From Heterotrichella gracilis (Eukaryota > Sar > Xanthophyceae > Tribonematales > Xanthonemataceae): DNA of 64,000 nucleotides. Every line of letters starts with the position of its first letter. Within the stretch, counting starts at the first letter, position 1. The DNA is taken from the NCBI GenBank assembly GCA_032358255.1, contig JAULBX010022187.1, positions 186,001-250,000 on the forward strand, given 5' to 3'. Shown here one piece after another: positions 1 through 64,000 of the stretch. Under the pieces are notes generated by a model. That model ran no database searches and was not told where the DNA came from. It saw only the letters and a program-made list of their open reading frames with translations. Both the position numbers and the translations under genes were made by a program.

Positions 1-2867
1 CCAGCAAAGGGCATGCCCAGCGCCACGTGGCAGTAAGACACGTGCAGCACCTGGAGGTGTGGGAAATAAGAAACAGATGAGCATATATTGAGTACATATA
101 TGATACTGTACTTGGTTAGTTACATGAATTCCAGCAGCACAGCAACATCCTTCGGCCAGGGATATACCTTGCCTGGGCCAGCCCTGTTCCGGCACTAAGT
201 ATACCACCTCTGCACCAGGAGTTGTCAACGCAGGTACATCATGTACCGCATGCACGCACACAACGAGAAGCAAAAGGCAAATCAACAGACAACCACGCAT
301 ACACAAGCCAACCAAAAAGCAAAAAAGGTGACCAAGCGGACCTTGAGGGTTGGGGTAGGGTGCAGGTACGTTTCCTCATCGCCCTCCCCGCCGTTCAGCC
401 AGCGCAGCGCCAGCTCAGCAAGGTGCTGCAGCCCCTGCAGGGCTTGCGCCAGACCCTGCACCCTGCCGTGCGCCAGGCCCAGGTAGGTGAGGGGTGAGGG
501 GGGCCAGCAGCGCCACCGCATCCATGCGACCACCGAACGCAAGCTCCAGGCGGCGCAGCTGGGGCGTCACCCAGGCGCCAGCAGTCGCCAGCAGGCTCAA
601 CCTCTGGCATCCAAACAAAAACCAATGAGTTAATTACCAAAGTTAACCTGAAGCGACCAGGAAAGATTACTTGTGTTTTCTTTTCGTTGCTACACAGCCT
701 GTCCTTGTCGGTGGATGCATCCCTCCGGGGGGCACGCATGTAATGTAATGTAAAATTAACATAAAAGAAAGGAAGAATATGATAATGCGTGTGCAATTTA
801 ATACCGAGTAAAATTGTACTCCACTCAGGTGCTCTTACCTGAGAGTCCAACATGGCGACGGACAGTGCGGTGAGCCCTGTCAACGACGAAAACACCCCCA
901 GAACCTCGGCAGGCGGTGCCTCCCACTTGCTGCCTGCTGCGCTGTTCAGCCTCACGGGGCTAAAAGAGCCCCGCCAACTTGAGCTCCCTTAGGCCAGTCA
1001 TCTGCCGGATCTGCTCGGCACCATCAAGGGGCATCGCAGGAGGCGCAATCAAGATGTTCAAATCGGGGTCCCTGGGTCTGTAGCATGACCACCCGCCGCC
1101 CCATATGAAGGTGCGCAGGGCAGGCAGCGGAGGCAGGGGGACCCACAAGGGTAGATTGAGCTTCAGCCTGGTGAGCCCTGGGTGGCATGTTCAGGGTTAG
1201 GGTTGAGCTTCAGCCTGGTCAAACCTGTGTGGCACTGTTTAGGTTTTGAGGTTTAGATTTGAGCTTCATGAAGCTGCAGCCTGGTGAGCCCTGTGTGGCA
1301 TTGTTTAAGGGTTTTTAGGGTTGCGCTTCAGCCTGGTCAGATCTGTGTGCACGGTTTAGGGTTTAAGGTTTTTAGGGTTGGGCTTCAGCCTGGTGAGCTA
1401 TTTGTGGCATTGTTTAAAGTTTAGGGTTTATAGGGTTGGGCTCCAGCCTGGTCACACCTGTGCGGCATTGTTAGGGTTTAGGGTTTCAGCTTTCAGCCTC
1501 AGCCTGGACTGACCTGTGTGGCACGCCAGCTGCTCGCCACAGCACTGGGCCGCTGTGGCACCTGTGTCGTGCGGCAGGTGCGCCGCGAGGTCCAGGTCAG
1601 TCAGCCTGGTGAGTGGCGCCAGGTGCTGCACCAGCTGCTCAAGGTGCGCTGGGCCGCCTGCACCCGTGGTTTGCATGAGCCTGCAGGGTATCTTTGTTGC
1701 CGTATTGACGCCCTTGCTAGCTGGCTCCTAAAGGATACAAATGCCACCTTATTCGCACCTTTAGGAGCCCTTGAAAGTAGCATGGTGTTTCGGTAAATGC
1801 AGCGTAAAAGCGGAGGGAGTGCGACATAGAAGAGGTTTTGTGTGCATGCACTGTCCGTGTTTAGAGTCCACTCTGCCGGGCAGCAGGATCTTCACATGGT
1901 GTTCGGTTTACGGCACAGGGTTTGGGTTTAGGGTTTATGGACATCACAAGGGCATACCTGCAGGTCACAGACTCCACTATACTCGGCAGCAGCGCCTCAA
2001 GGAACGACATGCATTAGGGTTTAGGGTTTCGAATCAGGGTTTGCGGACATCAAAGGGGCACACCTGCAGGTCACAGCCTCCACTATAATCGGCAGCAACG
2101 CCTCAAGGAACGACATGCATTAGGGTTTAGGGTTTCGAATCAGGGTTTGCGGACATCAGAGGGGCACACCTGCAGGTCACCGCTTCCAGTTTATTGGGCA
2201 GCAGCGCCTCCAGGACGGCAGCGCCCTCTCTAGATCGGAGGGGCGTTTCCCCCCGTCATACTTCAACGTCAGGCGCCTGGTGTGGCGCACAAGGGGTGCC
2301 ACTGCCTGGGGCTTGAAGGGCTTGAGCCGCCGCAGGCTGACCGTGACTGTGTCCCATATGAGTGGGGTGGTCACCTGCGCGGGGTTAAGGGTTGGGTTTA
2401 GGGTCTTGAGCCGCCTCAGGCTGACCGTGACTGTGTCCCATACGAGTGAAGTGGTCACCTGCGCGGGGTTTAGGGTTTAGAGTTTAGGGTATTGAGCCGC
2501 CTCATGCTGACCGTGACTGTGTCCCATATGAGTGGGGAGGTCACCTGCGTGGGGTTTAGGGTTTAGGGTTTAGGGTCTTGAGCACCCCTAGCTGGAGGGT
2601 GACACTGTCCCATATGAGTGGGAAAATCTATTCCGCCCCAAGGAGCAGGTTTAGGGTTTAGTGTTAGGGTTGAGGGTCCTGAGCACCCTCAGCCGGAGGG
2701 TAATTGTGTCCCACCTCCGCCCACAGCTTGCACACACACACGACCCTTCGTTTGTCTTTTGGCGGCAGGAGGGAGAGGATGGCGGAGAGCAGGGGCTCGG
2801 GGAGGTCGTGGATGGTGGCGCTGGAGGGCCCGGTGGTGGTGCCACGGTTGCGTTTCCTCTTGCCCAT
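1..2867 (-). CDS. F-box/leucine-rich-repeat protein, 5' part, runs off left edge, several apparent frameshifts
   Basis: Putative substrate-recognition subunit of an SCF ubiquitin ligase. Exon 1 (2867-2715) starts with a basic KRKRNR stretch and carries a clear F-box (IHDLPEPLLSAILSLLPP, then VCKLWAEV). Exon 2 (2374-2170) continues in phase with PLIWDTVTV, the usual sequence after an F-box. Exon 3 (1680-1514), exon 4 (about 1180-839), an exon near 620-370 and a last piece at 1-52 carry LRR units such as LAPLTRLTDLDL, GLTRLKLNLPL, LTGLTALSV and QVLHVSYCHV. Joins E1/E2, E2/E3 and E3/E4 agree in phase at the splice sites. Odd: the LRR frame is broken inside exon 2 (near 2220), in exon 4 at a TTTT run (near 963) and in the 370-620 exon (near 490). 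Either the gene is decaying or the assembly has homopolymer errors. F-box identity is firm, partners unknown. Confidence 0.8.
839..2720 (-). repeat. Exon-edge echo arrays in introns of the F-box/LRR gene
   Basis: Three arrays read on the minus strand. (a) 2370-2720: about four extra copies of the first part of exon 2 (acceptor CAG, then a sequence related to GTGACC...ATATGGGACACAG), each ending in CCCTAAACCC. (b) 1930-2200: three copies, about 120 bp apart, of the last part of exon 2 with its donor. (c) 1150-1520: about six copies of the exon 4 acceptor with the coding sequence for GLTRLKL, each falling into CCCTAAA-type repeats. Copies are diverged but keep the splice dinucleotides. Confidence 0.75.
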
Positions 2868-4060
2868 GGTGCTGCAGGCAGGGACAGGTGGGGTGGGGGA
2901 TGGGGGGCGATGGGTAGCATGTGATGAGGGTCAAAGTTGGGAGACTCTTCAAGGAAGCCGACGCAAATCCAGAAACCACAGTTGATGCTGGATTTCATGG
3001 TGGTTTACTCTATTATGGGAACTTGCCTGAGTCCGGGTGTATGACAGGCGATCGTGCATATGCATGCATGCACGGTTCATCCCATGGGTCCTCGCTGGCT
3101 GGAGGTTTTCAACGGACTGGCATTGGAAGTGCTCGTTACATTAAAACTGCGGATTTGTATAGCCATATAGGTCGTTGCACATCCCGCCTGGGCCGCGCAT
3201 GTAATTGTAAAGATACGTCGCTTAGTATGTGTGTGCATGCATGTTCATTGGCAGAGCAAGTCCTCACCTACCGTGTAGTACAGCGCCACCAGCTGATCCG
3301 TGACCCTTACGAGGTTTTATAGCTCGCGTTTGAAACCCACAAGTACGTGGTGTACAGGGTTGAGGGCCCCTGTCGCGCCCAGGTTTGGCGGTTGACCAAG
3401 CTCCAAGTTTGACCGGCAAGCTCTCTCGCTTTCGCAACCCAATCGAGTTGTCGGTTGACCACGGTGGTATATGCGTATTGGGCAAGTGTTATGTTCTGAG
3501 CCCTGGGTTAATCAACGAACCATGCACCGGCAGCTCGTGATAAAATACCAACGCGTGCACCGCTTTGTATAGGTATTCGATTTAACCCTAGTAAAAACTC
3601 TAGCAGGACCCTCGTGCGCCTTGATGGGGTTCGTCAAATGCCATCGGTAAGAAAGAAAGAAGAAAGAAAGAAAGGGGACGCACAAAGGCGTAGTTGAGGG
3701 GTAACCTAGGTCTGGCTACGGCCTTTGTGACTCCCGTCAACCAGGCCTGCCCTTGCACTGCTTGCACTGCACCAACCTTGCACCATCTTGCACAAGCTCT
3801 ACCGTAGAGTCTACGCAACAAAAAGCCGATTTTAGGGTTTAGGGTTTGACGACTGGCAGTGGTGGCCAAAGGCCAGCTGAATTCCACGCCCCGCCCTGCA
3901 AAATCCTAAACCCAAATCTGCGAAACCTGCTATGCCACCCTTTCTGTAACACCACGCATTGAAGTTCTGGAGTCTAAACCCTTCACCTACATTCCATCTG
4001 AAACGAAAGACCAAAAAGCAAAGGAAGCTGAAATCCAGACTGGCTGTACCCTGGGCAGCT
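2868..4060. other. Intergenic, upstream of F-box gene
   Basis: No supported gene. Holds a GAAA/GAAAG microsatellite at about 3652-3675, ATGCATGC palindromes near 3061 and 3236 and one TTTAGGG pair near 3835. Open frames here are short, overlapping and unlike any family I know. It should contain the F-box gene promoter; no core element is recognisable. Confidence 0.5.
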
Positions 4061-4360
4061 CCACCCGTGTCTGTAAGCTGCCTGCCAATCACTTTTGTGC
4101 ACTCCAGCGGCAAACTTGGCAAACCTGATGGGCGCACTTTACTGCGCCAGTGGGGAGAGGAGCGGGCAGGCCCCAATCAAGCTGCCCAGCAACATCCAAA
4201 TCCAGTTCAAGGGTGCACCAAGGGCAGGTCCCGGTCTGCAAGCTGCGCCCCACTCCCTCAGTAAACTCCATGTAACGCGCACACTGGCAAAGTCAGTGGG
4301 CCTGATGGGCTTTTGCCACGGATTGTTGCCGGAAGACGGGCAGGCAACCACACGCCTGAG
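4060..4360 (-). repeat. Two decayed copies of the oxidoreductase terminal exon downstream of its stop
   Basis: On the minus strand, segments at about 4350-4210 and 4150-4060 resemble the coding stretch for [18 protein letters not shown] and SGARVELP in the true last exon (4640-4435). They share words such as MEFTE and the GTGGAGCTGCC end but have lost the frame. They lie in the 3' flank, so they are 3'-terminal exon echoes, not coding. Confidence 0.7.
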
Positions 4361-4434
4361 CTAACGAATCACAAGGAAAAGGAGTATGAAACAGGCGAAC
4401 GCAAACCCAAGCTTATCAAAGGAGTATGAAACAG

Positions 4435-7400
4435 TCAAGGGTGCACCAATGGCAGCTCCACCCTGGCTCCACTTTGCAGGCTGCGTGCCACTGCCTCAGT
4501 GAACTCCATGTAGCGCACACCCGTGGCAAAGTCGGTGAGCCGGATGGGCTCCTGGCCGCGGATGGCGCCCACAAACTCCTCCTCCACGCGCCAGTGGCCC
4601 CGCTTGCCTAGGGCCACACACACCTCCTTCCACACACCACCTGCAGGGTCGGGGGAGGGAAGGGGTGGAGTTGGCGGTGGCGATGGCGTGGACAGTGTTG
4701 GTTGTGGTAATGGTGGCGCGCAAGCCATTTACAGCAAATGCACACATTTGGCGCCCCCCTGATCTGGTGGAAGCAATATTCAAAGATGACAGATTAGCAT
4801 TGGCAGCGCCCATGTCACGCCCGTCATCCACACCCTACTCCCATATGGTATGCATACCCCTCTTGTGCTACTCCCGCTGCATCCTGCACCTAAATCTGGC
4901 TCCAAACTCTAGCTAGGGTCTCACCTTCCTCTTTGAGCGCCATCCTGAGGCGGGGGGTGTCCAGGTCCAAATGCAGGGTGCCCAGGGTGCCATATATCCA
5001 AAATTCCTTGGTGGGGCCCTGGGGGGAGCCTGGGGAAGGGGCAGGCAGGTTTGTGTATAAATATGTTACCTTTTCAAAATTATTCGAACATGTCCATTGG
5101 GAACCTGCCACTTCCAACTGTGTGAGCATCCACACAAGGACGACTGCTAAAAAGGACAAGGTGGTGCAACAATCAAGATCAGATAAAACCACAACGCCCC
5201 CACCAAATGCGGCACACCGCAAACCCAAAAAAATACAAAAACTCACCCAGCACGGCGCTGAACACCATGTGCGCCTGCGCCCCGCACCACATCTCCGCCA
5301 GGATGTCCAGGTGGTCGGGGATTTGGACCCATGCGGGCTCCCCACTGGCCATGTCCCTGCGCTGCTTCACCACCGTTTTGCCCATGGCCATCACCCCCTT
5401 GGCGTCACCCACCCACCTGGGACAGGGGCACAAATCTGTCACATTTTTCACATTTGATGGTGGAGCAAGCGCCACATTCCCATTGCTACAAGTCCTTTGG
5501 CGCCAACTCACCTGGGACAGGGAGGGCATTTATGAAACCATTTTTCCCCCACTTGTTTGGATGGTAGACTGGGCGGGTAAAGGTGCTAGTAGGGATGTTT
5601 ACTACATCTTTGGTTTAATTGTTCCGGGGTTTCTTGAACCCCCCTGGTACTAGGGCGGGCACCGGCGATGTCCTGTTTGAGGTCCAACAGCATGTCCCTT
5701 GTGTTCTGTGCATGTATATAATCTTGTTGTCTTTTGTCATTTTAAATCCTGATAAGCAATCCTCCAGCAGCCCGCAAAGTAAGCTCTGCATCAGGGGAGT
5801 CAACATGACCCCCATGCCCCCCCTCCCTTGCCTCCTACCTCTGCAGCGCCTCGTAGAATATCCCCATGGTCATCACGTTCATGCCACTCATCTGCCTGTC
5901 GTGGCGCCACGTCATGGGGGCACCTGCAAGATAGAACACAAGCATTACTATTGAAATTGAACAAACAACACATTACATAGCGGGTTATGACGTTCATGCC
6001 ACTCATCTTGCCTGTCGTGCGAAAAAAGGTCGTGGGGGCAATAGATACAGATGAAATAAGATGTATGGATGAAAGACATGAAGGCAGCGTGATGATGACA
6101 GAGGTTAACTGTGAAGTGGAACCAATTCTTGGAGTGGAGCATTCGCCGGTGTAGCTATGCTTTACCCAGGTGGGGAAGCAGTATTAGTGTCCATAAGACA
6201 TCACATATTCTACTCCATAACGCAAACTATTGTTCTTGCCCCTACACGCACCTGAACCTCTGCAAACCCCTAAACCCTAAACCCTAAGCTCCCCACGCAC
6301 CTGCCGCCTCTGCAAATCCCGAGCCAGGCACCCCCTTCACTTTAATGTACACCAGCTCCCCTAGCACCTGCTGAACCTGAAAACCCCGACCCCTAAACCC
6401 TAAGCCCAAAACCCTACACCCTAAGCTCCCCACGCACCTGGCGCCTCTGCAAACCCCGTGCCTGGCACCCCCTTCACTTTGATGTACACCAGCTCCCCTA
6501 GCACCCCCGATGACACCAGATCCTTGATGGTGGAGTCATAGGCAAGCGTGAAAGGGGAGGGAACAATCTGAGCCACCTGGCGGGGGTGCTGGAGGGAAAT
6601 CTGCAGCATTTCGCGCGCCTCCGTTGCATTCATGGCCTGCATGGAGAGGGTGAGGGTGTCAAAACCCTGACTTAGGGTGAGAGTGTTTAGGTGGTAAGGG
6701 CCACATGGCGGGGGTGATGGAGGGAAATCTGCAGCATTTGTGCGCCTCCGTCGCATGCACGGCCTGGGATGCAGGGAGGTTGGAGGGTGTCAGAATCCTG
6801 GGCTTAGGGTGTGAGGGTCCCTAGGGGACGGAAGGGATCCCTGCCTTAGCAAGCGCGCACTGGTGATGGTTTTTCCTTCAATCATGCTGCGCACTAGCAA
6901 GGATCCCCACAGGGTTTGGGGTTCAGCCCCCTCACCATGCGCTTGCCCGGTCTTGGGTTTCCTAAGGTATCCCTAGTTCTTTTAGGACCCATCCATTTAG
7001 GGATCTCTCCCCACGCCCTGCGTGCCTGCGTCATATCATATTTCCCTGCCTCCAGCGCCTGACCCACTAGGGCCTTGCCTAGGGCTTCCTTCAGGTGTTT
7101 AAGGGCTTCTTAGGCTTTCCCTCAAGTTCCCTCCCTCACCATTCGCGCCTCCGTCATGACGTGCTTCCCTGCCTCCAGCGCCTGCCCCACCAGTGTCCTG
7201 TGCATGTAGGGCCAGGTGCCGATCACAATTGCATTAATGGAGGGGTTGCCGATCACATCGTGCCAATTTGAGGTGGCCTGTGTGAGTGGGGTGGGGCAGG
7301 GGTAAACGCAGGGCTGCCGATTCGGCTTGCCATATGCTCAGTGTACTTAGTTACAACCGTCTCAGCATGCAGCATGGGACGTATGCATGCGCATTGCACA

Positions 7401-8012
7401 CCAAAAGCCGCACAATAAACGTTTAAGCAGGACGCCAAACGCCGGCATGCTCAGAACCCCTTCACATTTGTACACAGCCCTAGGTTGGCCCCTGGTTGTT
7501 TACATGTTTTAAGTCCCTCCACCCACCCACCCACAGTTTGGCCCCACCTCTGGGATCCCGAATTCAGCTGCCACCCTCTGCGCCGAATCCAGGGTCCGGT
7601 TGCACACCATCTTCACTGTCACCCCCTTGATGGCCTGGAGCTTGGGGATGTGGTGGGCGCGCGTGTTGCCACCTGGCGCAGGAGGGGAGGGAATGGGGTT
7701 TTGGGGAGGGTGTTTCAGGGTTTAGGGTTCTGGGGAGGGTGTTGCTAGGGTTATTAAGATGTGGCGAGCGTGTTGGTGCCTGGCATATGAGGAAAGGGTG
7801 ATGGGTAGGGTTTGGCGAGGCGTTTTCTAGGGTTTAGGGTTTTGGGATGTGGCGGGGGCACGTGCTGCTGCCTGGCATACGAGGGAGGGCGGTAGGCAGG
7901 GTTTAAAAAGTTGGCGCTGTTCAGGGTTCAGGGTTTAGGGAGATGTTGGCATACCTGCTCCAATGACGCCCACGGTGATAGGCATCAACTCGCCCATCGC
8001 CACGTCAGCCAT
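4435..8012 (-). CDS. Gfo/Idh/MocA-family NAD(P)-dependent oxidoreductase, complete, 8 exons
   Basis: Predicted soluble dehydrogenase acting on a sugar or related polyol; substrate unknown. Exons: 8012-7955, 7672-7548, 7277-7140, 6636-6438, 5923-5839, 5416-5247, 5029-4925, 4640-4435. They sum to 1086 nt with all phases matching: 361 aa, typical for the family. The N-terminal Rossmann fold shows ITVGVIGAG, split by intron 1, then GNTRAHHIP; later come [61 protein letters not shown] and [10 protein letters not shown]. The usual EKP dinucleotide-fold motif is EAR here, as I remember for one bacterial branch of the family. The start is the first ATG in the exon holding the Rossmann strand; an in-frame ATG lies 15 nt inside. 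No targeting peptide is evident. The protein looks bacterial-type, but introns and exon echoes show it is long resident. Confidence 0.93.
5924..6437 (-). repeat. Donor-side echoes of oxidoreductase exon 4
   Basis: After the exon 4 donor (6437) the minus strand runs into TTTAGGG-type repeats, then repeats the exon end (coding for [12 protein letters not shown]...FAEA) with its donor at about 6370-6295, and a shorter copy at about 6265-6245. Reading frame is partly kept in the long copy. Confidence 0.75.
7673..7954 (-). repeat. Acceptor-side echoes in intron 1 of the oxidoreductase
   Basis: Upstream (minus sense) of the exon 2 acceptor at 7673, two further copies of the acceptor plus the first exon bases occur near 7861-7890 and 7775-7800. 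They are separated by CCCTAAACCC-like sequence in the sense strand. Confidence 0.6.
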
Positions 8013-9704
8013 CAGGGACACCTGGGCAGGTGATCTAGCCGGAAGGGCAGCGCTTGCAGCCTGAAATAAGGCACAAGCAGGGGTCAGACCACGTCCCCAC
8101 TGCCACGCGCAAAGGCACACTACCAAAGGTGGTGGGGGCAGGTTTGGGGCACAATTGGTGCAAAGTGGCCTGAGTCACATCATTTTGGGCCTGAGAGCAC
8201 CTGGGCCCTAGGCTGGGGTCAGCTGCTGGGGTGAATACCGACCTGCCTCGAGGACCTTGTCAAGGCCCTTGGTATTTGGGTATATGGGGTACCCCGTGTG
8301 GGTCTGTACGTTGGGCGGGCAAGCAGCGTCGGGTCACCTTGTTGCCGGAAGTGGGGGTTTCGCTGTGCACTGCTGTGGGTGAGGGAGACGACAAGGTTTG
8401 CAGGAAGCTGCAGTTGATATATGTATGGCCACCCCTGGGCACACCTACGTAACCCTTTGCTCTACGTAACCCTACAGTGACGCACCGATACGCATGCATG
8501 CACAGTACATTCGTCAACGGGCACACTTGAAAAGCTACGAATGTACCCAAAAGTACTGCCTAGGTGCGTTTGTATACCCAGTCCAGCGTTATTGTGCGTG
8601 ACGCATGCATGCATGCCACATGCACAGTAAGGGGGAAGGTTTACACCACTCCTGTAGCACCCAAAGTGGATATAACAGGGAAAGGACTCAAATTTGCCAG
8701 ACAGACTGTGCTTTGGTGAGCACTTGAGGGCTTGGATCGTGCGGTATGCTTGGTGTTGTTAACCCTGGAGGTACTACTGTGAGGGTCGCGACTGCCCACC
8801 TGTCCTTATTTTAGGGCAAAGTCATTGACAACGTCAGTTCACAACCCTCTGGACACTCAGATCGGGTGGTATATATTTTCACGTCGACACACCTAGTCTC
8901 AAGCTGGTGTGCTGTCCTTTAGCTTGTGCAGCTGGGTCCAGGTAAAGTGCAGGTGCAACTGGTTGGTGGGTGCAGGTTGACAATGGGGCTTGGGGCAGTC
9001 TGTGCCTGCAAACGTGGATTGGCCTCTGCCTCCACTAGTGCTGTGGGATGTAGGTGTGCACAGTCCCAACACGACTGTCTAAGCCACCAACGAACGGTGC
9101 TCTGAAACTCCCGTTGCAACTTCTGCAACTCGATGTGATAGCTTTAAAAGCCTTTATGAATGCTTGCATGCACGCATATAAATACGGGCACGAACCAATA
9201 TGCTGCTCTGAGTCTTTGAGAAGACAGTTAACCAGATTAGCAAAACCTTTACCCTGAGGATAGTGATCTCAACACACCGGGTTGGCAACCTTTGCCTTCA
9301 AGTTGTTGCTTGAAAGAGTTAGAGCAGCCGGCTCCCTTGCAAGCGAGCGCACAGAACCCTAAGCAGGGGTAATTATCCAGTTTGGTCACAGTGCGCACAA
9401 GCATGCGCAAGCCACAATTGTAAGTGGTGCCTGCCTCAAAAGGCTAATAGTCTGAAGGCGACAAGGCTTGGAAGTGTTGGGCTAATGCCACCGGGTAATA
9501 AAGAGCGAGTGGGGCCAGTTTGTCGGGCCACGTACCACTTGTGGGCCAGGCCTGTCAAGGCAAGTTCACTATTTTATGTCAACGAACGGGGAGCAGTGAT
9601 TAGGCAGCGTCAACAGAGGTTGACAAAGGGGTTCCATCAACATAGGAAATGCAAGATTTGTTTGCACGTTGCACCAACTGGCACGGCAGCTCTACCACAA
9701 CCAG
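8013..9704. other. Intergenic between oxidoreductase start and MYND gene end
   Basis: No gene supported. GC is lower than in exons and the TTTAGGG repeats thin out. ATGCATGC palindromes lie near 8490 and 8600-8616. It must hold the oxidoreductase 5' UTR and promoter and the 3' UTR of the MYND gene; I see no clear TATA box or poly(A) signal. Confidence 0.5.
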
Positions 9705-16550: not shown

Positions 16551-16599
16551 GTGGATGTTTAGGGTTTAGGGTTTTGGTGTCACCCTAAACCCCCCCAAA

Positions 16600-43999: not shown

Positions 44000-44793
44000 G
44001 AGATAGCAAACAAATGATGCTGTCTATTTGTGCCATGATCCACCCCGTTGCATCTTTTTGAATGACCGGTGGCCCAGGTGGCAACTTATTGTAAGTTTGT
44101 TGGAGACTTAGCACTGCTGAGTGCTGCCCCTGCTGTGCATTGCCAAGAATCCTTTCGTAATGTGGACCATCAACACTAGGCAGCTCTGGACCAGCCCAGA
44201 AAAACAAGCTCGCTGTAGCAACATTTGGACTGAATCCATAGAAAAAAGGCAGTGTGCTCTTCCCTACGTCTGTCTGCCGACAATGTCTTGCCCACACAAA
44301 AAGTATAAACCCTCGTCTCGTTCTATTTCCAAAACTGAGCGCAGTACACGTACGTGGTGGTCACGCGTGGTCAGGCTAGTACACATGGTTGCCTTCACAG
44401 GTACCACATTGCTCGAGGTACATAAATTGCATTGCATCCCTCGCTCTCTCCCCCTCCCCTACACCCACTGGCCCACAATGGCAACTATTGCAGCCTGCAC
44501 GGGAAAATGCCAGGCACGCATGGGGTGGCCTTCACCCTGACAAACCCTAGCCTAGGCTGTAGTGCAGAGTGCACACAAACCCCCTTCCGCAACGTACTCA
44601 AACCCTCGCTTAGGGCTGCAGGCAGGCATTCCCAGCCAACCTCTCCATGCCTTGCCGTTCTTAGGGTACCAGCCCACTGCATTGTTAGCAGAAATACCCT
44701 CCTTTGGGGTCCTCGTGCAGCCTGCACCCTAGCCCATGGTGCACGCCACCAAAATCCATTTGCTATCCCAGACACATGGCAAAACCCTATACC
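44000..44793. other. Spacer and 3' flank of the channel gene, with terminal-exon echo
   Basis: Contains a decayed copy of the channel's last exon at about 44640-44740 (GGGTACCAGCCC..., then CTAGCCCATGGTGCACG), followed 45 bp later by the true exon end. The remainder has no supported gene. Confidence 0.55.
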
Positions 44794-53700: not shown

Positions 53701-55815
53701 CATTCTCCAAAGCAAGATCCTTCGATATATGTTCTCCACTGGCGCGAGCCGAGCTCATCTGCCTAGCAGCATGCACATATTTTTCAACAACAGACTACTT
53801 TTGACAAGGCCGCCGCATCTGTATGCATACCAGCGTGTGGCATATTTTATGCAATGCTTTCCTCCCCTCCACCCACCAGTATACTCCCGACCCCTTGCTG
53901 ATGTTGCCCAGCGTGTATTTGACAAAGGCGGAGCTGTCGGCCCCGTTCTGGGTCACCTGGTTGGAGCCCTGGCCATACAGGGGGAGCACTGCGGGATGGG
54001 GGGTGAAGGGGAGGTCACCGCCAGTTGCAGGGTGGGGGGTGCCAAAGGGTGCCTCAAGCATGGGGCCATGTCCCGGGGATGTGCCATGTCATCGTGCAAG
54101 TTAGCGTGCCAGTAATGGGACGAGGTCGTGTGGGAATGCGGTTTGTATTCAGCATGAGATGTTGGCCCATTGCTGAGGTCAGGCATGCAAAGTGGGCCAT
54201 GTTGCATTGCTGTGCCAGGCATGTGGTGTGGTCATGTGGGTCATGTGCGGCAGGGGAAGGATGCCCTAATACCGTATACCCCAAACCCTAAGGGTACTTA
54301 CGCAGCGCCAGCGCGACCACAGACAGCGGCAGGTACAGCTGGATGCCCAAGGCAGTCATGCGCAGGAGCATCTGCGGGAGGGGAATGGGGGCTGTGTTCC
54401 CGTATGGTGTCATTAGGGACCTCTAGGGTTTTCATTAGGATATTTCCTCCCACCCACCAGTGCGTCCAGTCCCGCTGTCAGCAGCACCTCCCTGTCGCTG
54501 GTGGTCAGCACAGGCCACAGGCACCAGGGTATCATAAGGGTTTCATTGGGTTCATCTAGGGTTTTCGTTAGGGTTTTCCTCCCCACCCACCAAAGCGTCC
54601 AGCCCCGCAGTCAGCAGCACCTCCCTGTCGCTGGTGGTGAGCACAGGCCACAGCCACAAGGGTGTCATAAGGGTACCATTACGGACCTCTAAGGTTTTCA
54701 TTAGGGTTTTCCCCACCACCCACCAGTGCGTCCAGCCCCGCTGTCAGCAGCACCTCCCTGTCGCTGGTGGTGAGCACAGGCCACAGCCAGTTCCACAGCT
54801 GGGACACGCAGCGCAGGTGCTGGGCGGGGGGTTTCACCCACACAGTGGGGAGAAGCTGCAAGGAGGGGGGTAAAAACGGTGTGTGTGGTGTGTGTGTGTG
54901 TGCATGGGTAGGCGTGCGGTTGCCAGAGTGTTATTTTGTTCCACCCATGGGCGCATGTTGAATGGCATGGCATGGCATGGCATGGCGCAGACTAATGTCA
55001 GGGCGTGACTATTGTGTACATTGGTGACCCTGGGACGCAGACGACTCTCACTGGGAACCAAGATTCGAGGTGCATTTTGAAGATTTTTGTATGTTGGTTT
55101 GCGGTGAGCATGAACCCTAACCTGGAGCCTGCAAAACCCTTACCAGCCTGGTGCGGTACACCTTGAGGTGGCCCCTGACCACAAAATTCTAAACCCGAGC
55201 CTACAAGACCCTTACCAGTCTGGTGCGGTACACCTTGAGGTGGCCCCTGAGCAGTCCAAACAGCAGCAGGCATGACGCGCCAGCCACGCTGCTCACGATG
55301 AACCTACGCAAGGGTTTGGGCTAGGGTGTTGGATGAGGTTTTGGAACAGGTGTGCATGGCAGATATGGGTCAGGTGAAAATGACAGGCCTGCGGTCGATG
55401 CGGCCCTGTGAATGCGAGTGCATCTGCTAGGGTTTGGGCTAGGGTTTTGGGGAAGGGGTTTGGAGCATGGGTCAGACATCAAAGGTCAGGGGTCAATAAC
55501 AGGTGGGCGGTGCTCCTTTTATTATTACGTGTACAATGCACAAGTCAGGAGGTCTAAGGGCTTGTGAAGTGCAAAATGTGCAGCATACATGGCTTGGTGT
55601 ATGCATGCATGTGCCGATGTGTGCGAGGCCAATGTGGATACTTACGAGGTCCGAAGCTCGCTGCCCGATATGTTTGTGTTGTAGCAGTTCGAGAACAGGA
55701 TCTCGGGGCTGCAGTTTGGCGGCGGTGGCGGTGCGAGGGCGGCCGGGGCGGGGGGCGGATACCCACTGCTGCCATTGCCACCCACCACATCTTGCAATAG
55801 GGTTCGGAACCACAT
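44794..55815 (-). CDS. OSCA/CSC1/TMEM63-type mechanosensitive or osmosensitive cation channel, complete, 20 exons, 1396 aa
   Basis: Predicted Ca2+-permeable membrane channel. Exons: 55815-55646, 55303-55216, 54855-54724, 54371-54302, 53988-53877, 53610-53544, 53263-53045, 52735-51600, 51444-51350, 51016-50785, 50359-50247, 50068-49818, 49409-49165, 48717-48515, 48315-48134, 47547-47422, 46786-46606, 46112-45926, 45534-45352, 44992-44794. The total of 4191 nt closes in phase. Membrane segments include FIVSSVAGASCLLLFGLL, TALGIQLYLPLSVVALAL, VSLLVLILVVVYSCWLLYMH, GVLPLVIAVMALPTGFA, ALLLTLYQNWLLPLALYYLA, ALFFYWTIFNVFIGAMLGGT and FLVALGLALAFSAMVF. Family cues: WNWLWPVLTTSDREVL, FSSQKAAAIAAQANLHPEDG, SLSKLDRRIGALFFYW, LPLSANFFIQLIVFKGFFNN. 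Plant OSCAs are ~770 aa; the excess is mainly exon 8 (378 codons, Ser/Pro/Gly/Arg-rich) in the cytosolic loop after the third membrane segment. Confidence 0.93.
45200..45351 (-). repeat. Donor-side echoes of channel exon 19
   Basis: CACTTGTTGAACAG.ACCAC (plus strand) at the exon end recurs at 45281-45300 and, as CACTTGTTTAAACAGCACCAC, at 45207-45227. C-rich CCCCAC linkers separate the copies, not telomere-like sequence. Confidence 0.7.
46113..46450 (-). repeat. Acceptor-side echoes of channel exon 18
   Basis: The stretch CGCATGCTGATGGCGCCCAG at 46060-46090, inside the exon, recurs at 46236-46275 and 46408-46452, with parts of the acceptor region. One linker holds TTTAGGGTTTAGGTTTAGG. Confidence 0.75.
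46738..47013 (-). repeat. Acceptor-side echoes of channel exon 17
   Basis: About 50 bp (GGTAGATCTCCTCGGGGCTG core) including the acceptor is present three times, ending at 46789, 46899 and 47012. The linker is an AT-rich ATGATGATTAGGAGGGTGAT block, not TTTAGGG, so echoes do not require the heptamer. Confidence 0.85.
47780..48195 (-). repeat. Donor-side echoes of channel exon 15 (four copies)
   Basis: The exon end coding for LYQNWLLPLALYYLAQ plus its GTGGGGAACCC donor is present at 48134-48190 (true) and again near 48017-48075, 47898-47960 and 47783-47850, about 115 bp apart. Residues are almost unchanged (LYQNWLLPLARYYLAQ). Linkers carry GGTTTAG in sense. Confidence 0.9.
48680..48960 (-). 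repeat. Acceptor-side echo of channel exon 14
   Basis: GGCGGCGGCCTTCTGGGAGC with flanking coding sequence (AAAIAAQANLHPEDG) is repeated at 48885-48945, upstream in sense of the true exon start at 48717. Confidence 0.85.
51255..51350 (-). repeat. Donor-side echo of channel exon 9
   Basis: GCCCTGTCCAGCATCAGCTC (plus strand) with the donor occurs at 51265-51292 and in the true exon at 51355-51383. A run of CCCTAAACCC on the plus strand lies between, TTTAGGG in sense. Confidence 0.85.
54455..54800 (-). repeat. Donor-side echoes of channel exon 3 (three copies)
   Basis: The coding block for WPVLTTSDREVLLTAGLDAL with its donor is present at 54724-54795 (true), 54588-54660 and 54459-54520. Here the linkers carry AACCCTAA in sense, opposite to most donor-side arrays. 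Confidence 0.9.
54960..54988. repeat. GGCAT pentanucleotide microsatellite
   Basis: Four to five tandem ATGGC/GGCAT units in a channel intron, next to a GTGTGTG tract at 54880-54902. Confidence 0.8.
55139..55215 (-). repeat. Donor-side echo of channel exon 2
   Basis: CTTACCAG.CTGGTGCGGTAC and the following 20 bp (coding for GHLKVYRTRL) occur at 55139-55180 and again in the true exon from 55211. Confidence 0.85.
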
Positions 55816-56577: not shown

Positions 56578-59500
56578 ATGCCGGCCTTCGTGCTCTATAA
56601 GCGCCGGTGGCTGGCGGCGTCCGATGACATGCCGCTGCTGGCGGGGTTTTGGGCCATTTTCCACTCCGTTTGGCTGGCAGTGCTTATCTATGGGTCCGTG
56701 CTTGCCCGCCAATCCGACGATTCCTGTAGCCTGGGGGTGCTGGTGCCGCTGCGGGTGGTGGTGCTGACGTTCGCCGCCGTCATGGCGGCGGCGCTGGGGA
56801 CGGAGGTCACCATCGTGGTGGTGGGGATGCGAGGTGGGTGGGGGGGGGTGACACATGCATGCATGCAAGCCGATGGGCAGACTGAAATCGTGCTGGGACC
56901 AGGAGTTGTCAATGCCGGGTGTGAACTAACACGCCATTGCGTTTTTTGTCGTCTATAGTGGCGCCCCGTGTGTATCCTGGCATATGCATGCATGCAACAT
57001 GGTACATATTTTTTTGCAAATTGCAATGCAATGCAAAGCAATGCACCCTTTCAATTTCAAACCCCTCGCATCCGTTCAGATCCAATGCAGTTCGTGCACG
57101 CACACTCTGCACCACATCCTTGCACCCACACCCGGCCTGCCCCGTTCCCTCCCGTGCCCCTGCTCCGCAGGCACCCCTCTTGAGCCCTCCAAGCGCAAAT
57201 CGATCAGCCAGCTGCTGGGGGCGGTCATAGTGCTCTGGGTGGGCATCGTGGCACTCACAAGTGCGTGGCTAGGGTTGGTTTAGGGTCACGCCGCAGCTAG
57301 GGTTTTGTTAGGGTTCTATGGCCGCGCCAAGGTTTGGGTGGGCATCGTGGCACTCACAAGTGCGCAGTCAGCTAGGGGGGACCGGGTGCGCTGTGTTGGG
57401 GTTCCATTAGGGTTCCATTAGGGTTTCATTAGGGTTTCAACAGCGTTGCAAGAGGGTCACACTAGGGTTGCATCAGGGTTCTACCAATGTGTGTGTGGGC
57501 ATCGTGCGTGCTCACAACAGTGCAGGTAGGGTTTGATTAGGGTTCCACTGCAGCTAGGGTTTTGTTAGGGGTTCTAATACCTCCCCAGTACCCGATTACC
57601 CTTACCACCACCCACTGCAGTACCCACTCCACTGCCCTGTACACGGCCCTCGCCTTTATCCTTGCCATTACCCTATTCCTGACCCTTTCCATCACCGTGC
57701 CCCCACAGTTGCCATGACTTTGCACCAGGCCGGCCCCACCTTCCCCTGCCCTCTCCTTTACCCTAATCCTGACCCCCCACCCCCCACCCCTCCCCCGCAG
57801 TTGCCATGACTGTGTACCAGGCAGGCCTTGTGAAGGGGTGCTTCAGCGACCCCCACGTGGTCACAGTGCTGAGGGTCATCACCTGGGGATCGTGGGTGGT
57901 CATCGGGATTAGCGCGTAAGCAGGGCGGGGGAGGAGGGGGCCTGGCGGCGCAATCCATGCATCACTGTCAAGCATGCATTTCATAGAAGAATGCTCTTCA
58001 ATAAGCAATGGTGACGGTGTCCAACTGACCTGCGACGGTCCACCAATATCCCATCATTGATATGAAAAGCTGTTTCTGTGGTGCCTCTTGCACCTGTGTG
58101 CCTAATCCTCACGCCATGACCGTTCCACCTCATCCCCCGCAGCCTGGTCATGTACCTGCTGTACTCAAAATCCTGAACCCTACTCCGCACACCCTAAACC
58201 CTAAAATAATCCCCCTCCCGCAGCCTGGTCATGTACCTGCTGTACTCAAAACCCTGAACCCTACTCCTCACACCCTAAACCCTAAAATAATCCCCCTCCC
58301 GCAGCCTGGTCATGTACCTGCAGTACTCAAAAGCCCTCAACCCTGACCCCACACCCCAAATCCTAAACCCTGAACCCAAACCCTAAACCCTAAAACAATC
58401 CCCCTCCTGTAGCCTGGTCATGTACCTCCTATACTCCTTCTTCCCCGAGTACCGCGCGGTGGATGCCTGGCAAAAGTGGCTGGAGCAGTGGAGCCAGAGG
58501 CTGTCGTGCGCGGCGCAGCTGCAGACCAAGGGCAAGAAAACAAGGTGAGGAAACGGGGGAGGGGGTGGACTTGGCTGGGGGAGCGCACGTGTGTGCCAGC
58601 TAATGGCAGTGAAAGAGGAAGGAAAGAAAGGATTTGCTGAGAGGTATCCTTATGAAATGAAGGATCGAAAATTCGCTGCCGCACGTACAATATTTACGAG
58701 TGTATAAGGTATAAGTATATAAGTTATAAGTATAAGTTTCAATTCTTAATATTACAGGGTTGAAATTTAGTATTTGCTATTGCACGTATAGCACAAGCAC
58801 CCTCATCAAGTGCTCAGAAGTCTGCTTGTGGCTCTGCTGGCAAAGGGTGTCAATTGGAATACCGCACCTCCTCCCCTGCCCAGCCCTCGCGCCTCAACCC
58901 CTCTCACACACCACCCCCCCACCCTCCACCCCCCTCCCGCAGCAAGACCGCCTCCCAGGAGATTGCCACCTCCCTTGCACACCTGCTGGGCCGCGTGGAC
59001 CTCACCGCCAGCGACCGCCTGCTGGCCATGGCCCTCATGTCTGCAGTGCACAGCGAGAGGAGGCGGAGACTCATGCTGGACAACCTGAATGCATGTGGTG
59101 AGGAGATAGATGTAGTAGGACCCTGAACCCTGCCATAAAACCCTAGACAGGCTCTGGCACAAGCCCTGGCACAAGGTCTAGGTTTGAACTGAGTGCTAGT
59201 GACCGCCTGCTGGCCATGGCCCTCATGTCTGCTGTGCACAGCGAGAGGAGGCGGAGGTTCATGCTGGACAACCTGAACGCATGTGGTGAGGAGATAGATG
59301 TAGTAGGGCCCTGAACCCTGCCATAAAACCCTAGACAGGCTCTGGCACAAGCCCTGGCACAAGGTCTAGGTTTGAACTGAGTGCTNNNNNNNNNNNNNNN
59401 NNNNNNNNNNNNNNNNNNNNNNNNNNNNNNNNNNNNNNNNNNNNNNNNNNNNNNNNNNNNNNNNNNNNNNNNNNNNNNNNNNNNNAGTGACCGCCTGCTG

Positions 59501-62500
59501 GCCATGGCCCTCATGTCTGCTGTGCACAGCAAGAGGAGGCGGAGGTTCATGCTGGACAACCTGAACGCATGTGGTGAGGAGATTGTACTCTAAACCCTAG
59601 AGTGGACCCTAGCGTGGATCCCACCCAAACCCTAGCCCAAACCCTGGCCGCGGCAGGCACATGCATGAGCCTGGGTGGCATTATGACCCACCGCATTTGT
59701 GTGCCAAATGTGCAGGGTACGAATGCCCCAAGGACTCCCCTACTGCCACCCAGCGCTTTGGATGCTTTGGTCCCTCATCACCAAACCCAGGAATCCGCCC
59801 CCCCTCCGGCCCTCGCCCTCGCCCCCGTCCCCACCCCCGGAACCGTCCCCACGTCCGCCTCTCCACTCACCCATCCCCCGGCGCCCAGCCCCCCCAAAAT
59901 CTTGACGAATTGGACCCGAATTCAGTCCCCGCCGAGGAGGCCCACGATGCAATCCAAATTTCGGTGGAATTGGAGGACCACATTTGGCAGCATGGGGATG
60001 TGACCCTGGACATCGGCAAGATTCTGCCCCAAGCCGAGGTGTATGCAATGAGGAAGAAAATGGCAGACGCAGCTGCAGCGATTTCCGTGGGCGCGGGGGA
60101 TCACGTGGGGAACTTGCGGGCGCGGCTACGGCTGGCGGCTGCTCGGATAGTGCTGAGGAGTGGGGACCGGGTGCATGGCGGGGAGGGGGAGCGGGGGGAG
60201 GGAGGAGAAGGGGAAGGGGAGGGGGGGATTGCCAAGTGGGGCGGGGAGGTTCTGAAGGAGGGGAGGGAACGGTGGAAAGCCCTGCGCCAGGTGCTGGTGC
60301 GGGAGCTTGGGGGGAGGGGCGGGGAGGGGGAGGAGGAAGCAGATTCGACCCGCAGCGGTGGCGCAGGGGGGGCACCGCCACCTCCTAATGGGGGTGTCAC
60401 AGGGGAGGAAAGGGACACACTACCCCCCCTTAGCGCCACCTCATTGGCTGGGGAAGGGGGCACTGGGGAGGTCCCTGATGCAGCCCCCCTGGAGAAGCCG
60501 GTTCGCATGTCCAAGAGGGTCAGCTTTGCTGCAGAACCCCAGACCTCCCGCGATGGCGACGCCAATGCACCCGGGACCTCCTCCAGCGCTCAAGCAGCAG
60601 CTACCCAGCATGCAGACCCTGGCGCCATTCCGGAGACCCTACCACAAACCCTAGAACGACCTTCCCTGAAGCCCCTGGCGTCTGGCGCTGGTGTGGACAC
60701 TGCACCTTGCGAGGTGCTGGAGGTGGAGGAGGTGACCCTACGAGAAACCCTAGAAGAACCCTCCCTGGACCCCCTGGCATCCGGCGCCAGCTTCCACACA
60801 GCATACAGTGAGGGACGGGAGGGGGAGGAAGATGATTCAGCAGGGGAGGAAGGGGAAGGTGCTTCAACAGGGGAGGGAAAGGGAGATGACTCAGCAGGGG
60901 AGGAAGGGGAGGGTACTTCATCAGGGGAGGGAAAGGTTGATGGCATCGTGCCAGGGGAGAGTGGGGAAGGTGCTGTGGCAGGGGAGGCATTAGCCGTCGA
61001 CCCCAGCGAGGAGCAGAAGGAGCTTGGGCGTGAGCTTGAGAAGCGCTACAGCTCGCGTGCCCTCCACGTGATCACCCCCTCCTACCGCCTGTGCCAGTCG
61101 CTGAGCGATGCGGTGGGAGTGGACACGGCGGCATCGGACTGCACAGGTACGGGGTGTATTGCTGACCCTAACCTAGGGTTTTGATGGGCTGGGCGCAGGG
61201 TTTTTGTAGGTTTTTGGTGCCCGGGGCCCTGGGCTAGGGTTTGAAGGCTCCTCCATGTGATCTAGCTGTGTCCACCAATCATTACACACGAGGAATTCTG
61301 GAACATAATGAGGAATGGTCCTGGTTCAGTTTATTGTTTGTGATAAATACCCTTAGTAATTTCCCCCTTCCCGTGCAGGTTTCTTTGAGTGCGTCCCCCC
61401 TGAGATCATCAAGGAGACGCACCACTGGCTGAGATACGCGGTGGCAGCATACGGGCTGCAGGACATACTGTGGAACAAATACGAGTAGGGATACCAACCC
61501 CCTGTCCCCCAGGGAAATACCCCTGTCACGAGGGTTTTGCCTGATGTGCATGCTGTTGCCGCATGACGCAAGGGCTGTTGCCACACGATGCAAGGGGCGC
61601 CATCTCTCTGTCATAACTGGTTGTCATAACTGGTCGTACAACATCACCTTTTTCACCCCATTGCTGCACACATCGATGCAAACCCTTCGGTAGGGTTCAC
61701 TTTCTCTTGCACCCTGCTACTCTCCCCTTCCCCCACCTCGTCCCCCCTCCTCCACCCCAACTCCCTGATCCCCTCCTCCCCACCCCCACAGCAACCCCAC
61801 CTGCAACCAGAAGACCCAGAACTGCACCTCAGCCAAATGCAACGCACCCACCCCCAACCAGCTGCGCCAGAAGAACCTACAGGGTATTCACCAGCTGCTG
61901 GGCACCCCCCCCTCCGCCCTCATCCACGCCAGCTATGCCAACACCAGCCGGGGTGTGCTGCCCTACATTGTGGTGGTGGATGAGGTGGGGGTTGGGTGGG
62001 AAAAGGGGGTTGTATCAGTTTGATGCTCTCTTTTCTCCTAGAAAATTAGAAATAAATATATGAATTCCATTTTTCGAATTTCAATTCAATTCCTGTAAGA
62101 CCATGCAGGTGTGTGTGAGATTTCCATACTATGCCACCCTCGCTCCTCTGCATGCAATTCTCGCGCCTTTTGTTCTCTACCCTGTTAGTATCAACAATTT
62201 ACCTCCCCTGGTGCAGCCCCGCCGCAGTGTGGTGGTTGCGCTGCGCGGCACAGTCAGCTTTGATGATGTTGTGACCGACCTACTGGGCACACCTGGCGAG
62301 GTGGATGAGTGGCTGCCGCGAGGGTTTGTGGAGGTGCGTTGTACCCTAAGAATTGCCACAATCACATCTACATGCTGGAGTTGTGCCCTGGCATTGCGCC
62401 CTGAGACCACGTGTGTTTTTATATCTTGTGTAAAATATAATTGACACCAAGGGGTGGTGTGTTACAGCATATGGGGGTGGAGGGTACCCCATGGGCGCAC

Positions 62501-64000
62501 GAGGCGATCGTTGACTCCTGCACAGCAGTCATCATGGACCTCTACTCACACGGTATTGTACTCATCTCCCCCTTCTGCTGACATCTTTCACCCTGTGCAC
62601 TTGCCTCTCATAGCGGTCTCTAGTTGCAAACCCTAGATACAAACTCCAAGCCCCAAACCCTAGGTGCAAACCCTAGATACTCCAAACCCTAAGTGCAAAC
62701 TCTAGATCTATCGATACAAACTCTAAACCCTCAAGCTCATTGTGGATTCTCCCTGCTGGCAACTCCTGCAGGCATTATGCCAAATCAGCCCTGCTCAACC
62801 CCAATGAAACCCTACAGCAGGGTTCACGTTGCCCACCCTCAACCCTGCTAAATCTAAACCCTTCTGAAACCCTCCATCACTGTTCAATCCAATCCAATCC
62901 AATCCAATTCAATCCAATCCAATCCAATCCAATCCAATCCAATCCAGTCCAGTCACCACCCTGCGATCCCCCACTCAGGCTTCATCAGCGAGTCGGTCCT
63001 ACTCAACTCACCCGAGCTGAGCGCCTGCCTGAGTGAGCTGCAAGACGCAAAAGCTGCAGGGGAGGTGGACAGCCGCTGGGACAGGCATGGGGCGCTGGTG
63101 CACGCGCCGTCGCACAACATAGCAGCGCTGGAGGCAAAGGTGGGTGGGTGGGTTGGGGGGTGGGTGGGGTGTATATGCGCTTTTTGCAGAGTGTGGTGGC
63201 GCTGGAGGTTCAGGTGTGTGGGGAAGTGGGGAGGGCGCACGAAATCACAATCCAACATATTCAAAATACTCCCCACAATCAAATCCAGCATCCCCTCCCC
63301 ACCACGAGTATTATCCTCCCCAGCACACCCTTGCTTCCCCTCCCGCTCAAACCGCGGATTCCCCTTCCTGTGCAGGTTGCCAGCGGCGAGTGGCGGCTGG
63401 TGATGACTGGGCACTCCCTGGGGGCAGCGGTGGCAGCGCTGATAGCTGTGCAGATGCGGGGCGTGTACCCAGGTAGGCCTGTTTCTTCCAACAGACTTAC
63501 ACGCATTATTAAGGTTTATTAATGCTATTTATGTTTGCAAGCATTTTTCGATACATTTGTAATAAAAAAGAACAGCGGTGAGGTTTGCACCCAAAAACCA
63601 CCCCTCACACTCCGCCACCCATGCATCCCCGCCTCCTGACCCCCCACCTCACCCCGTAAGAATACATCATTTGTGGCCCAAAGTGAGATTGAAACCCTAC
63701 CAACCCCCACCCCCCAGCCACCGCCTGCTGGGCCTTCTGCCCCCCTGGAGGCACTTGCTCCCTCAACCTTTCCCACGCACTGTCCCCATTCGTCACCGCT
63801 GTGGCTGTGGGGAAGGACCTCATCCCCAGGCTGTCGTACCCCAATGTGCAGCGATTCATGGATGAGGCGGTGGTGGCGCTGGCCAGGTGCAGGTAAGGGT
63901 TTTGGTAGGGGTTTAGGGTAGGGTTTTGGATGGGGTTCTATAGGGCTAATGGACAAGGGGGGAGATGGCGTTGGTTGTGGTCAGCCATTAGTGGTGCTGC
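56578..64000 (+). CDS. Membrane sn-1-specific diacylglycerol lipase (DAGL-type, lipase class 3), runs off right edge
   Basis: Predicted to hydrolyse diacylglycerol to a 2-acylglycerol. Exons: 56578-56833, 57171-57260, 57801-57915, 58413-58544, 58943-59097, 59716-61146, 61379-61484, 61792-61984, 62217-62333, 62468-62552, 62979-63139, 63376-63472, 63718-63892; all phases agree (about 1037 codons so far). Four N-terminal membrane segments: FWAIFHSVWLAVLIYGSVL, LRVVVLTFAAVMAAALGTEV, ISQLLGAVIVLWVGIVAL and VITWGSWVVIGISALVMYLL. Catalytic region: VVVALRGTVSFDDVVTDLLG, nucleophile elbow TGHSLGAAVAAL (Ser), then WAFCPPGG and FVTAVAVGKDLIPRLS, whose GKD Asp matches the catalytic Asp of DAGL-alpha. The next His-bearing part is outside the window. 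Exon 6 inserts 477 codons, Pro-rich then Glu/Gly-rich, between membrane and lipase parts. The 100-N gap lies in intron 5. Confidence 0.93.
57261..57560 (+). repeat. Donor-side echoes of lipase exon 2
   Basis: GTGGGCATCGTGGCACTCAC at the exon end recurs at 57340-57363 and, diverged, at 57491-57518. GTTAGGGTTCTA / ATTAGGGTTCCA linkers separate the copies. Confidence 0.85.
58135..58412 (+). repeat. Acceptor-side echoes of lipase exon 4 (three copies)
   Basis: CCGCAG plus the first ~26 nt of exon 4 (CTGGTCATGTACCT.CT.TA) occurs near 58137, 58222 and 58302 before the true acceptor at 58412. Each copy breaks off after TACTC and continues as AAAACCCTGAACCC...CCCTAAACCCTAAAATAATCC; units are about 83 bp. 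This is the clearest example of exon edge fused to telomere-like sequence. Confidence 0.92.
59098..59580 (+). repeat. Donor-side echoes of lipase exon 5, interrupted by assembly gap
   Basis: The last ~95 bp of exon 5 (AGTGACCGCCTGCTGGCCAT to GCATGTG|GTGAGG) is repeated at 59195-59288 and again at 59486-59577, nearly identical. Linkers between the first two are also identical (AGACAGGCTCTGGCACAAGC). Confidence 0.92.
59386..59485. other. Assembly gap (100 N)
   Basis: Exactly 100 undetermined bases, the conventional size for a gap of unknown length. It falls inside a near-identical tandem array. Confidence 0.99.
62883..62948. repeat. AATCC pentanucleotide microsatellite
   Basis: About 13 tandem AATCC units (some AATTC, AGTCC variants) in the lipase intron before exon 11. 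Confidence 0.95.

Follow-up and report, generated by a model that had tools for sequence, protein, structure and literature searches.

Rows of exon-edge copies in introns of the xanthophyte Heterotrichella gracilis, with local break repair as a possible origin

Several described systems produce short copies of local DNA or enlarge introns. Mouse and human cells acquire small tandem duplications when CST-Pol alpha fills in staggered 3' overhangs (PMC8355091), a tandem duplication that supplies splice signals can create a new intron (PMC4974935), and interstitial telomeric sequences are inserted at double-strand breaks, the target being duplicated in a minority of the mammalian cases (PMC2246262). 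Here we consider a stretch of 64 kb of Heterotrichella gracilis DNA (contig JAULBX010022187.1, positions 186,001 to 250,000, assembly GCA_032358255.1), called the window below, in which introns hold direct, decaying copies of the end of a neighbouring exon together with its splice site. We refer to the copies as echoes and to a group of them as an array. Short duplications are reportedly known in plants as well, from work on paired nicks and on patch repair in rice. Exon sequence is also repeated within an intron in tandem exon duplication, the source of mutually exclusive exons, whereas in the arrays mostly the exon edge alone is copied and reading frames are broken.

The arrays share with the break-repair duplications described in PMC8355091 that the copies are short, local and direct, and telomere-serving factors act in that system; they differ from what is described there in that they lie on exon edges, often contain filler, are amplified to rows and account for 13% of the intron sequence in our sample. 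With the case of intron gain described in PMC4974935 they have in common that the duplication provides splice signals, but that case made a new intron, whereas the arrays lengthen introns that already exist and leave the echo as a spare copy. The likeness to the interstitial sequences described in PMC2246262 lies in the telomere repeats at sites of breakage, sometimes with a duplicated target; in the arrays, by contrast, the repeats are degenerate and are found inside the long intronic duplications of exon edges or between them. Introners, as described in PMC9860276, likewise concern intron evolution in bulk and differ in forming families: an introner family was rejected for the arrays, considering that only 13 similar pairs across loci were found among 393 introns and that both non-telomeric fillers tested (2/2) were single-copy in the genome. 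An open-access literature search by title or start of abstract returned no description of exon-edge arrays in introns. The arrays are real and common, and they are assembled from known ingredients. The statement of the first-pass annotation that no described element does this was too strong, since the literature already covers both short tandem duplications by break repair and the gain of introns through tandem duplication.

The sample consisted of the window together with 19 other readable stretches of its genome (68.5 Mb, 903 contigs), 237.6 kb in total; light-harvesting proteins among the gene products of the genome point to a photosynthetic organism. Arrays were detected by comparing each sequence with itself by blastn and merging direct pairs less than 2.5 kb apart (E<=1e-5). 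Exon edges were taken from an unsupervised hidden-Markov gene model trained on the window and the 19 stretches rather than on transcripts. The model converged on sharp splice sites ([C/A]AG^GTGAG, and a C-rich tract with GCAG^G, where ^ marks the exon border) and gave 397 exons with a median intron of 289 bp; individual edges may err, and adjoining genes were fused. The spliced window genes matched the Pfam families PNK3P (the 3'-phosphatase of PNKP), GFO_IDH_MocA, F-box, RSN1_TM/RSN1_7TM (an OSCA-type channel) and Lipase_3 (a class 3 lipase); ten unspliced open frames gave a single weak match, under the cut-off. One stretch, L019, holds at 3204-4628 and 7321-8323 repeats of ~125 bp (42 residues) that look like coding repeats, presumably armadillo-like by their length, and not like echoes. 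Because its two arrays have this appearance, L019 was left out of the tests of exon share, codon position, side, intron length, echo gaps and flank likeness and of the multi-locus edge and introner tests; it was retained in the total of 81 arrays, the strict edge count, the spacing range and the splice-dinucleotide count.

Within the window, 53 near direct pairs formed 32 arrays, many of which were called independently by Tandem Repeats Finder, and self-blastn detected no near inverted pair (six inverted pairs at any distance). Over the whole sample, 81 direct arrays stand against one near inverted pair and, at a laxer threshold with telomere motifs masked, 178 direct pairs against one inverted. 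Order-3 Markov copies of the same sequences gave 0 arrays. The copies that the first-pass annotation had noticed thus exist, and they are local and direct, as break-repair tandem duplications are.

The position of the arrays was judged by two counts. The loose count accepts any splice edge of a predicted exon of at least 30 bp that lies inside the array footprint or at most 10 bp away, and takes decoy exon calls as edges, equally in the data and in the null; the strict count requires that the exon continues outside the array and that at least 10 bp of homology lie on either side of the edge. By the loose count, 30 of the 32 window arrays hold a splice edge (null 18.9, maximum 28; 0/500 random placements as high), as do 72 of the 75 arrays in the multi-locus set (null 51.7, maximum 61; 0/500). 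The strict count gives 51/77 arrays where 38.1 are expected (0/300) and, at an identity of at least 85%, 28/45 against 20.8 (1/300). Copies are therefore commoner at exon edges than placement predicts, so that this comparison, one of those by which the annotation would have given up its reading, does not refute it. For the youngest arrays, at an identity of at least 90%, the two counts conflict: 21/22 against 15.9 by the loose count (2/500) and 12/22 against 9.7 by the strict count, which is not significant (61/300). On the one hand, the geometry of placement accounts for a large share of the pattern, with random arrays meeting an edge about 50-70% of the time. On the other hand, a significant edge bias beyond geometry remains, except for the youngest arrays in the strict count, and it is not fully explained.

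Both kinds of exon edge are affected alike, with 32 arrays on the donor side and 34 on the acceptor side. The first-pass annotation was right about spacing only in part, since units of 80-125 bp are found in 20 of the 32 window arrays and in 40 of all 81, with a full range of 63-228 bp. The two to nine copies that it had counted are more than we see: where the source exon is clear (66 arrays), the number of echoes is one in 36, two in 16, three in 12 and five in 2. Copy, filler and copy follow each other in 34 of the 44 two-copy arrays, the copied segment measuring 35-117 bp and the spacer 13-156 bp, and in 38 of the 44 a clear source exon continues outside the array. In the 34 arrays of copy-filler-copy form, the predicted intron runs on past the echo. 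Exon makes up most of the copied segment, with a mean share of 0.70 against 0.26 under a null in which the echo is placed anywhere in the introns and the template lies at the observed distance. Break-repair duplications would be independent of position, and here the share departs from this position-free null; survivorship may be the reason.

The filler is sometimes telomeric. Contig ends that were read carry (TTTAGGG)n, and the same telomere repeat occurs in the arrays. The window contains 946 telomere 7-mers where 173 are expected. One stretch, L027, is a contig end made of telomere repeat that had been labelled non-genic and had inflated the first motif densities; with L027 omitted, the density is 34.4/kb inside arrays and 5.6/kb outside (40.5 and 5.5 with it), at least one 7-mer is present in 52 of 79 arrays, and introns (14.8/kb) are far richer than intergenic sequence (2.2/kb) or exons (0.9/kb). 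When the lipase exon 4 array was compared with the rest of the genome, 31 of the 33 matches listed fell wholly within query positions 195-268, a telomere-like stretch, and 2 overlapped it. The motif also has a preferred strand: it is C-rich in 22 acceptor arrays and G-rich in 1, G-rich in 13 donor arrays and C-rich in 9, with neither in 21 (p 8e-5), a pattern that selection for a pyrimidine tract may explain. The first-pass annotation overlooked the telomeric component, as it did the uneven spread of arrays over the genome and the gap in the lipase exon 5 array, one of its clearest cases, both described below.

The echoes are non-coding. A duplicated functional exon would keep an open frame, and 21 of the 22 gap runs in the exon parts of echoes are not multiples of three; stop codons number 4, where 8.4 are expected if all changes fell on the echo and about 6 by our estimate from nonsynonymous changes. 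Between source and echo, the mismatch at codon positions 1, 2 and 3 is 8.4, 7.8 and 17.3% (12.8% in the intron-derived part), a third-position ratio of 2.14 (CI 1.73-2.67), which is close to what we would expect if the exon is constrained and the echo free. Between echoes, the corresponding figures are 11.1, 10.5 and 19.7% (14.9%), with a ratio of 1.82 (CI 1.34-2.51; 30 arrays). This second bias hinted at coding constraint on the echoes, which the frame-breaking gaps rule out; it suggests instead that the exon was copied more than once, at different times, and gene conversion by the exon would look alike. Intron-derived parts carry ~5 times as many gap runs as exon parts (26.2/kb against 5.4/kb). 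As the annotation had anticipated, decoy splice sites are left behind, the dinucleotide being intact at 73 of the 84 compared edges where 73% is expected at that identity (L019 and some decoy exon calls included). Residues predicted from echoes are missing from Protein Data Bank relatives in two cases, about 10 of them in PNKP (one echo) and 13 in the channel exon 17 echo; the channel exon 15 echoes lie outside the aligned range of that comparison.

The arrays also add length. Introns with an array (n=58) have a median of 508 bp and those without (n=237) of 295 bp, and with the array footprint subtracted the median of the former falls to 250 bp. As long as the decoy exons predicted within arrays are left in, the two groups do not differ (333 against 297, p 0.49); the effect is clear once these are removed. 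In this respect local duplication at exon borders does lengthen introns, as the first-pass annotation had proposed. How introns lengthen without transposons is an open question, and in the affected introns a median of ~250 extra bp can be traced to the neighbouring exon edge and filler, with the origin still visible.

We propose that the arrays are scars of local break repair, that is, short tandem duplications arising from staggered breaks, tolerated at exon borders, amplified and re-copied; we put the probability of this reading at about 0.5. The staggered break, the fill-in, the participation of telomere machinery and the re-copying are what we infer. A staggered break, or two close opposite nicks, would occur near an exon border, and once both overhangs had been filled in and joined, a segment of ~40-120 bp would be present twice in direct orientation, in some cases with filler separating the copies. 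Telomere repeat would be one such filler, as if end processing that serves the telomere (telomerase, CST/Pol alpha) had acted on the ends. A duplication carrying a splice signal would be tolerated, as its outermost copy forms a complete exon edge and the other copy drops into the intron. Side-by-side copies could then grow into rows of up to six by unequal exchange or slippage. Selection would keep the exon intact as a source of ever new copies, while older copies and the parts derived from intron decay, and the intron would gain roughly the length of the array. In favour of this account are the near absence of inverted copies, the copy-filler-copy layout, the enrichment of telomere motifs in arrays and the tie between the two densities, the added intron length, the broken frames and third-position ratios of the echoes, the likeness of filler and far flank, and the residues missing from solved relatives of PNKP and the channel, besides the duplications in mouse and human cells mentioned above.

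Several observations weigh against this reading. Simple duplication followed by tolerance predicts junctions spread evenly over the segment and many duplications of intron alone, and the data differ on both points. In 16 pairs with at least 88% identity and a clear source, exon makes up 0.82 of the copied segment (departure from uniform by KS, p 7e-5), and templates free of exon make up 6% of the 34 copy-filler-copy cases (9% of all 44) where 62% are expected. In young donor pairs the segment stops 1-6 bp past the donor (L011:7730, L025:1400, 2463 and 3456), and in young acceptor pairs it starts 5-24 bp before the acceptor (L025:1108 at 100% identity, L020:9276, L017:8748, L023:4928, L023:5635, L011:2532 and window 48646); the exceptions are the donor pairs at window 6265 and 51229, which run 36 and 29 bp into the intron, and the acceptor pairs at window 5868 and L022:8574, where the segment starts inside the exon. 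Spacers without a telomere 7-mer number 18 of 34, so that the repeat accompanies the process and is not required for it. The correlation of arrays with telomere motifs weakens once motifs inside arrays are excluded (rho 0.40, p 0.03, 30 units). Copies farther from the exon are not significantly more diverged (17 against 12 of 30, p 0.27). Finally, the comparison covers a single genome, in which only the state after duplication is seen. The idea that the newest copy adjoins the exon, which has the right direction in several arrays, was not retained, as the trend is not significant.

The most serious alternative, which we nevertheless regard as unlikely, is that duplications arise at random and only survivorship makes them appear at edges: those in exons are removed, those in introns fade, and those across an edge stay recognisable. 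Under random placement, 51.7 of 75 arrays would already meet an edge, the strict count of the youngest arrays is compatible with no preference, and the roughly fivefold excess of gap runs shows how intron-derived parts erode. Erosion is also visible in the filler, which resembles the far flank more than it resembles mismatched flanks (p 6e-5; p 0.001 without telomere motifs) or other introns of the locus (KS p 1.8e-5 lenient, 0.001 strict; 31 cases), with a clear 34-bp remnant of homology at L022:9105; the signal is weaker in young pairs (p 0.006 against mismatched flanks, 0.03 against other introns), and some lenient alignments are no better than chance by eye. This likeness suggests that the duplicated unit extended into the intron and that this part decayed, and the sharp edge of the segment is at least in part due to decay of its intron half. 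However, the youngest arrays remain at edges by the loose count, and 11 pairs with at least 90% identity have an exon share of 0.77 against a null of 0.28 (0/500). By our reckoning, moreover, an echo of a constrained exon would stay visible only ~2 times longer than an intron-only pair, which leaves the scarcity of intron-only templates unexplained.

The sharp segment ends of most young pairs, which stop at the splice signal, could instead mean that copying is directed to the edge, the break or template being set by splicing-related structures such as nascent pre-mRNA under exon-definition complexes, or by transcription-linked nicks at borders. Genome growth would then be linked to splicing: the exon-definition footprint (at a donor the exon end and ~5 bp beyond it, at an acceptor the exon start and the 5-24 bp of tract before it) would set breaks or templates, and a nascent transcript or its hybrid would guide local, sense-only copying into the next intron where telomere-type end processing is active. 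Direct orientation and the small number of intron-only cases agree with this. Against it, no echo with a clean spliced exon-exon junction was found for 338 predicted junctions, and the leftover intron homology past the segment in some cases favours plain duplication; we consider both the general proposal and its exon-definition form improbable. Retrocopies of spliced RNA were rejected on the same 338 junctions, after 25 candidate rows had been dismissed by eye as decoy exon calls, coding repeats, a paralogue, or partial or short matches. One of them, in the intron at L025:2206-2311, contains the end of the upstream exon and the start of the downstream one as copies separated by ~37 bp, and so resembles a reduced version of the intron with both edges.

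End-joining with templated insertion of polymerase theta type, in which an intronic break is patched with a copy of the nearby exon, would give the copy-filler-copy layout and leave native intron as filler, as the single-copy fillers could be taken to indicate. Such insertions are expected in both orientations, though, and the single inverted pair beside 178 direct ones, the length of the copies and the need for a template that is preferentially exon make this a poor candidate. Telomeric insertion as the sole event is excluded by the motif-free spacers. It is very unlikely that the echoes are functional, as alternative exon ends or regulatory decoys under selection; the retained splice dinucleotides and the third-position bias between echoes could be read in this way, but the exon parts are out of frame in nearly every gap and the stops are near neutral. 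An artefact of assembly is hardly credible: one array is crossed by a 100-N gap at a repeat junction, but copies differ by up to ~30% with indels and fillers of their own in the window and in 13 of the 19 stretches.

The process is common and patchy. As a correction to the first-pass annotation, the window has no array between ~25.1 and 45 kb. Over the genome, 9 of 23 readable stretches are array-free (L010, L012, L016, L018, L024, L026, L029, L030 and L032), mostly with ordinary exon density (L032 is exon-poor). L016 lies on the same contig as the window. Four stretches added after the analysis had been fixed gave 0, 0, 5 and 0 arrays, with a mostly-exon copy in 3 of the 5. Exon density is no predictor of where arrays occur (rho 0.20, p 0.28), whereas array density tracks telomere-motif density (rho 0.72; 30 units, L027 omitted). 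The interpretation given by the first-pass annotation is thus partly supported. Such a genome is suited to asking whether break repair, transcription or splicing sets the sites of intron growth, and it bears on how cells manage with series of decoy splice sites that are almost perfect; what merits direct testing is the edge bias that geometry leaves over and the tie to territory rich in telomere repeats.

All cases singled out by the first-pass annotation were located in the window, and they are given here with the remaining arrays, exon numbers being those of that annotation, assigned by position. On the minus strand, the F-box gene has arrays over 1156-2713: an acceptor-side array with CCCTAAA-rich filler (1156-1525), a donor-side array with two echoes and a period of 106 (1917-2215), and an acceptor-side array with a period of 84-86 (2310-2713). 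The Gfo/Idh/MocA oxidoreductase, on the same strand, carries donor-side echoes at 4207-4563 (copy-filler-copy), 6265-6505 (TTTAGGG-like filler) and 7010-7193, and acceptor-side echoes at 5868-6019 (of the exon start, free of telomeric filler) and 6572-6818. Further along the minus strand are an intronic array starting 14 bp from a donor (7746-7941), an intronic pair ending 7 bp before an acceptor (13822-14094) and a CCCTAAA-rich acceptor-side array (15323-15606). The first two of these, together with 22590-22708, lie 7-14 bp off the nearest edge and do not cross it.

On the plus strand, exon 3 of the PNKP phosphatase is flanked on both sides, by an acceptor-side array (18814-19145) and a donor-side array with three echoes and a period of 124 (19156-19614). 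The same gene has an acceptor-side echo (20316-20564), a donor-side array with two echoes (20619-20869) and a donor-side echo with TTTAGGG-like filler (21303-21496). The product of this multi-array gene (~17400-22700), a 3'-phosphatase of PNKP type, is itself one of the enzymes that repair DNA breaks. Also on the plus strand are an array whose unit includes an entire 54-bp predicted exon (21766-22065), an intronic array 10 bp past a donor with no exon part (22590-22708), a donor-side echo with CCCTAAA filler (23124-23325), an acceptor-side echo whose unit starts in CCCTAAACCC (24233-24513) and a donor-side array with five echoes, the edge of which, CTGTGAGG, is alternatively a stop codon (24557-25068).

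The channel, on the minus strand, has acceptor-side arrays at 46022-46453 and, for exon 17 and free of telomeric filler, at 46734-47016; a donor-side array of exon 15 with three echoes and a period of 116 (47751-48193); an acceptor-side echo (48646-48956); a donor-side array of exon 3 with two echoes and a period of 133 (54406-54789); and a donor-side tandem pair with a period of 72 (55117-55253). A donor-side echo on this strand has TTTAGGG inside its copies (51229-51383). In the lipase gene, on the plus strand, a donor-side array (57236-57576) is followed by an acceptor-side echo of the exon preceding exon 4 (57665-57827), by the acceptor-side array of exon 4, with three echoes, a period of 81 and CCCTAAA-like filler (58136-58436), and by the donor-side array of exon 5, with a period of 188 (59007-59583). 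A scaffold gap of 100 N (59386-59485) falls exactly on a repeat junction of the last, so that its copy number is not readable.

Three minor observations concern other parts of the sample. Predicted proteins at ~35.4-43.2 kb, in the array-free part of the window (25100-45000), contain several modules that resemble one another and have the appearance of a local family of genes or repeats. A tandem repeat, (CAATC)13, lies at 62885-62951. At L021:4705-5579, as at window 21766-22065, the units seem to hold a whole small exon with both of its splice signals.

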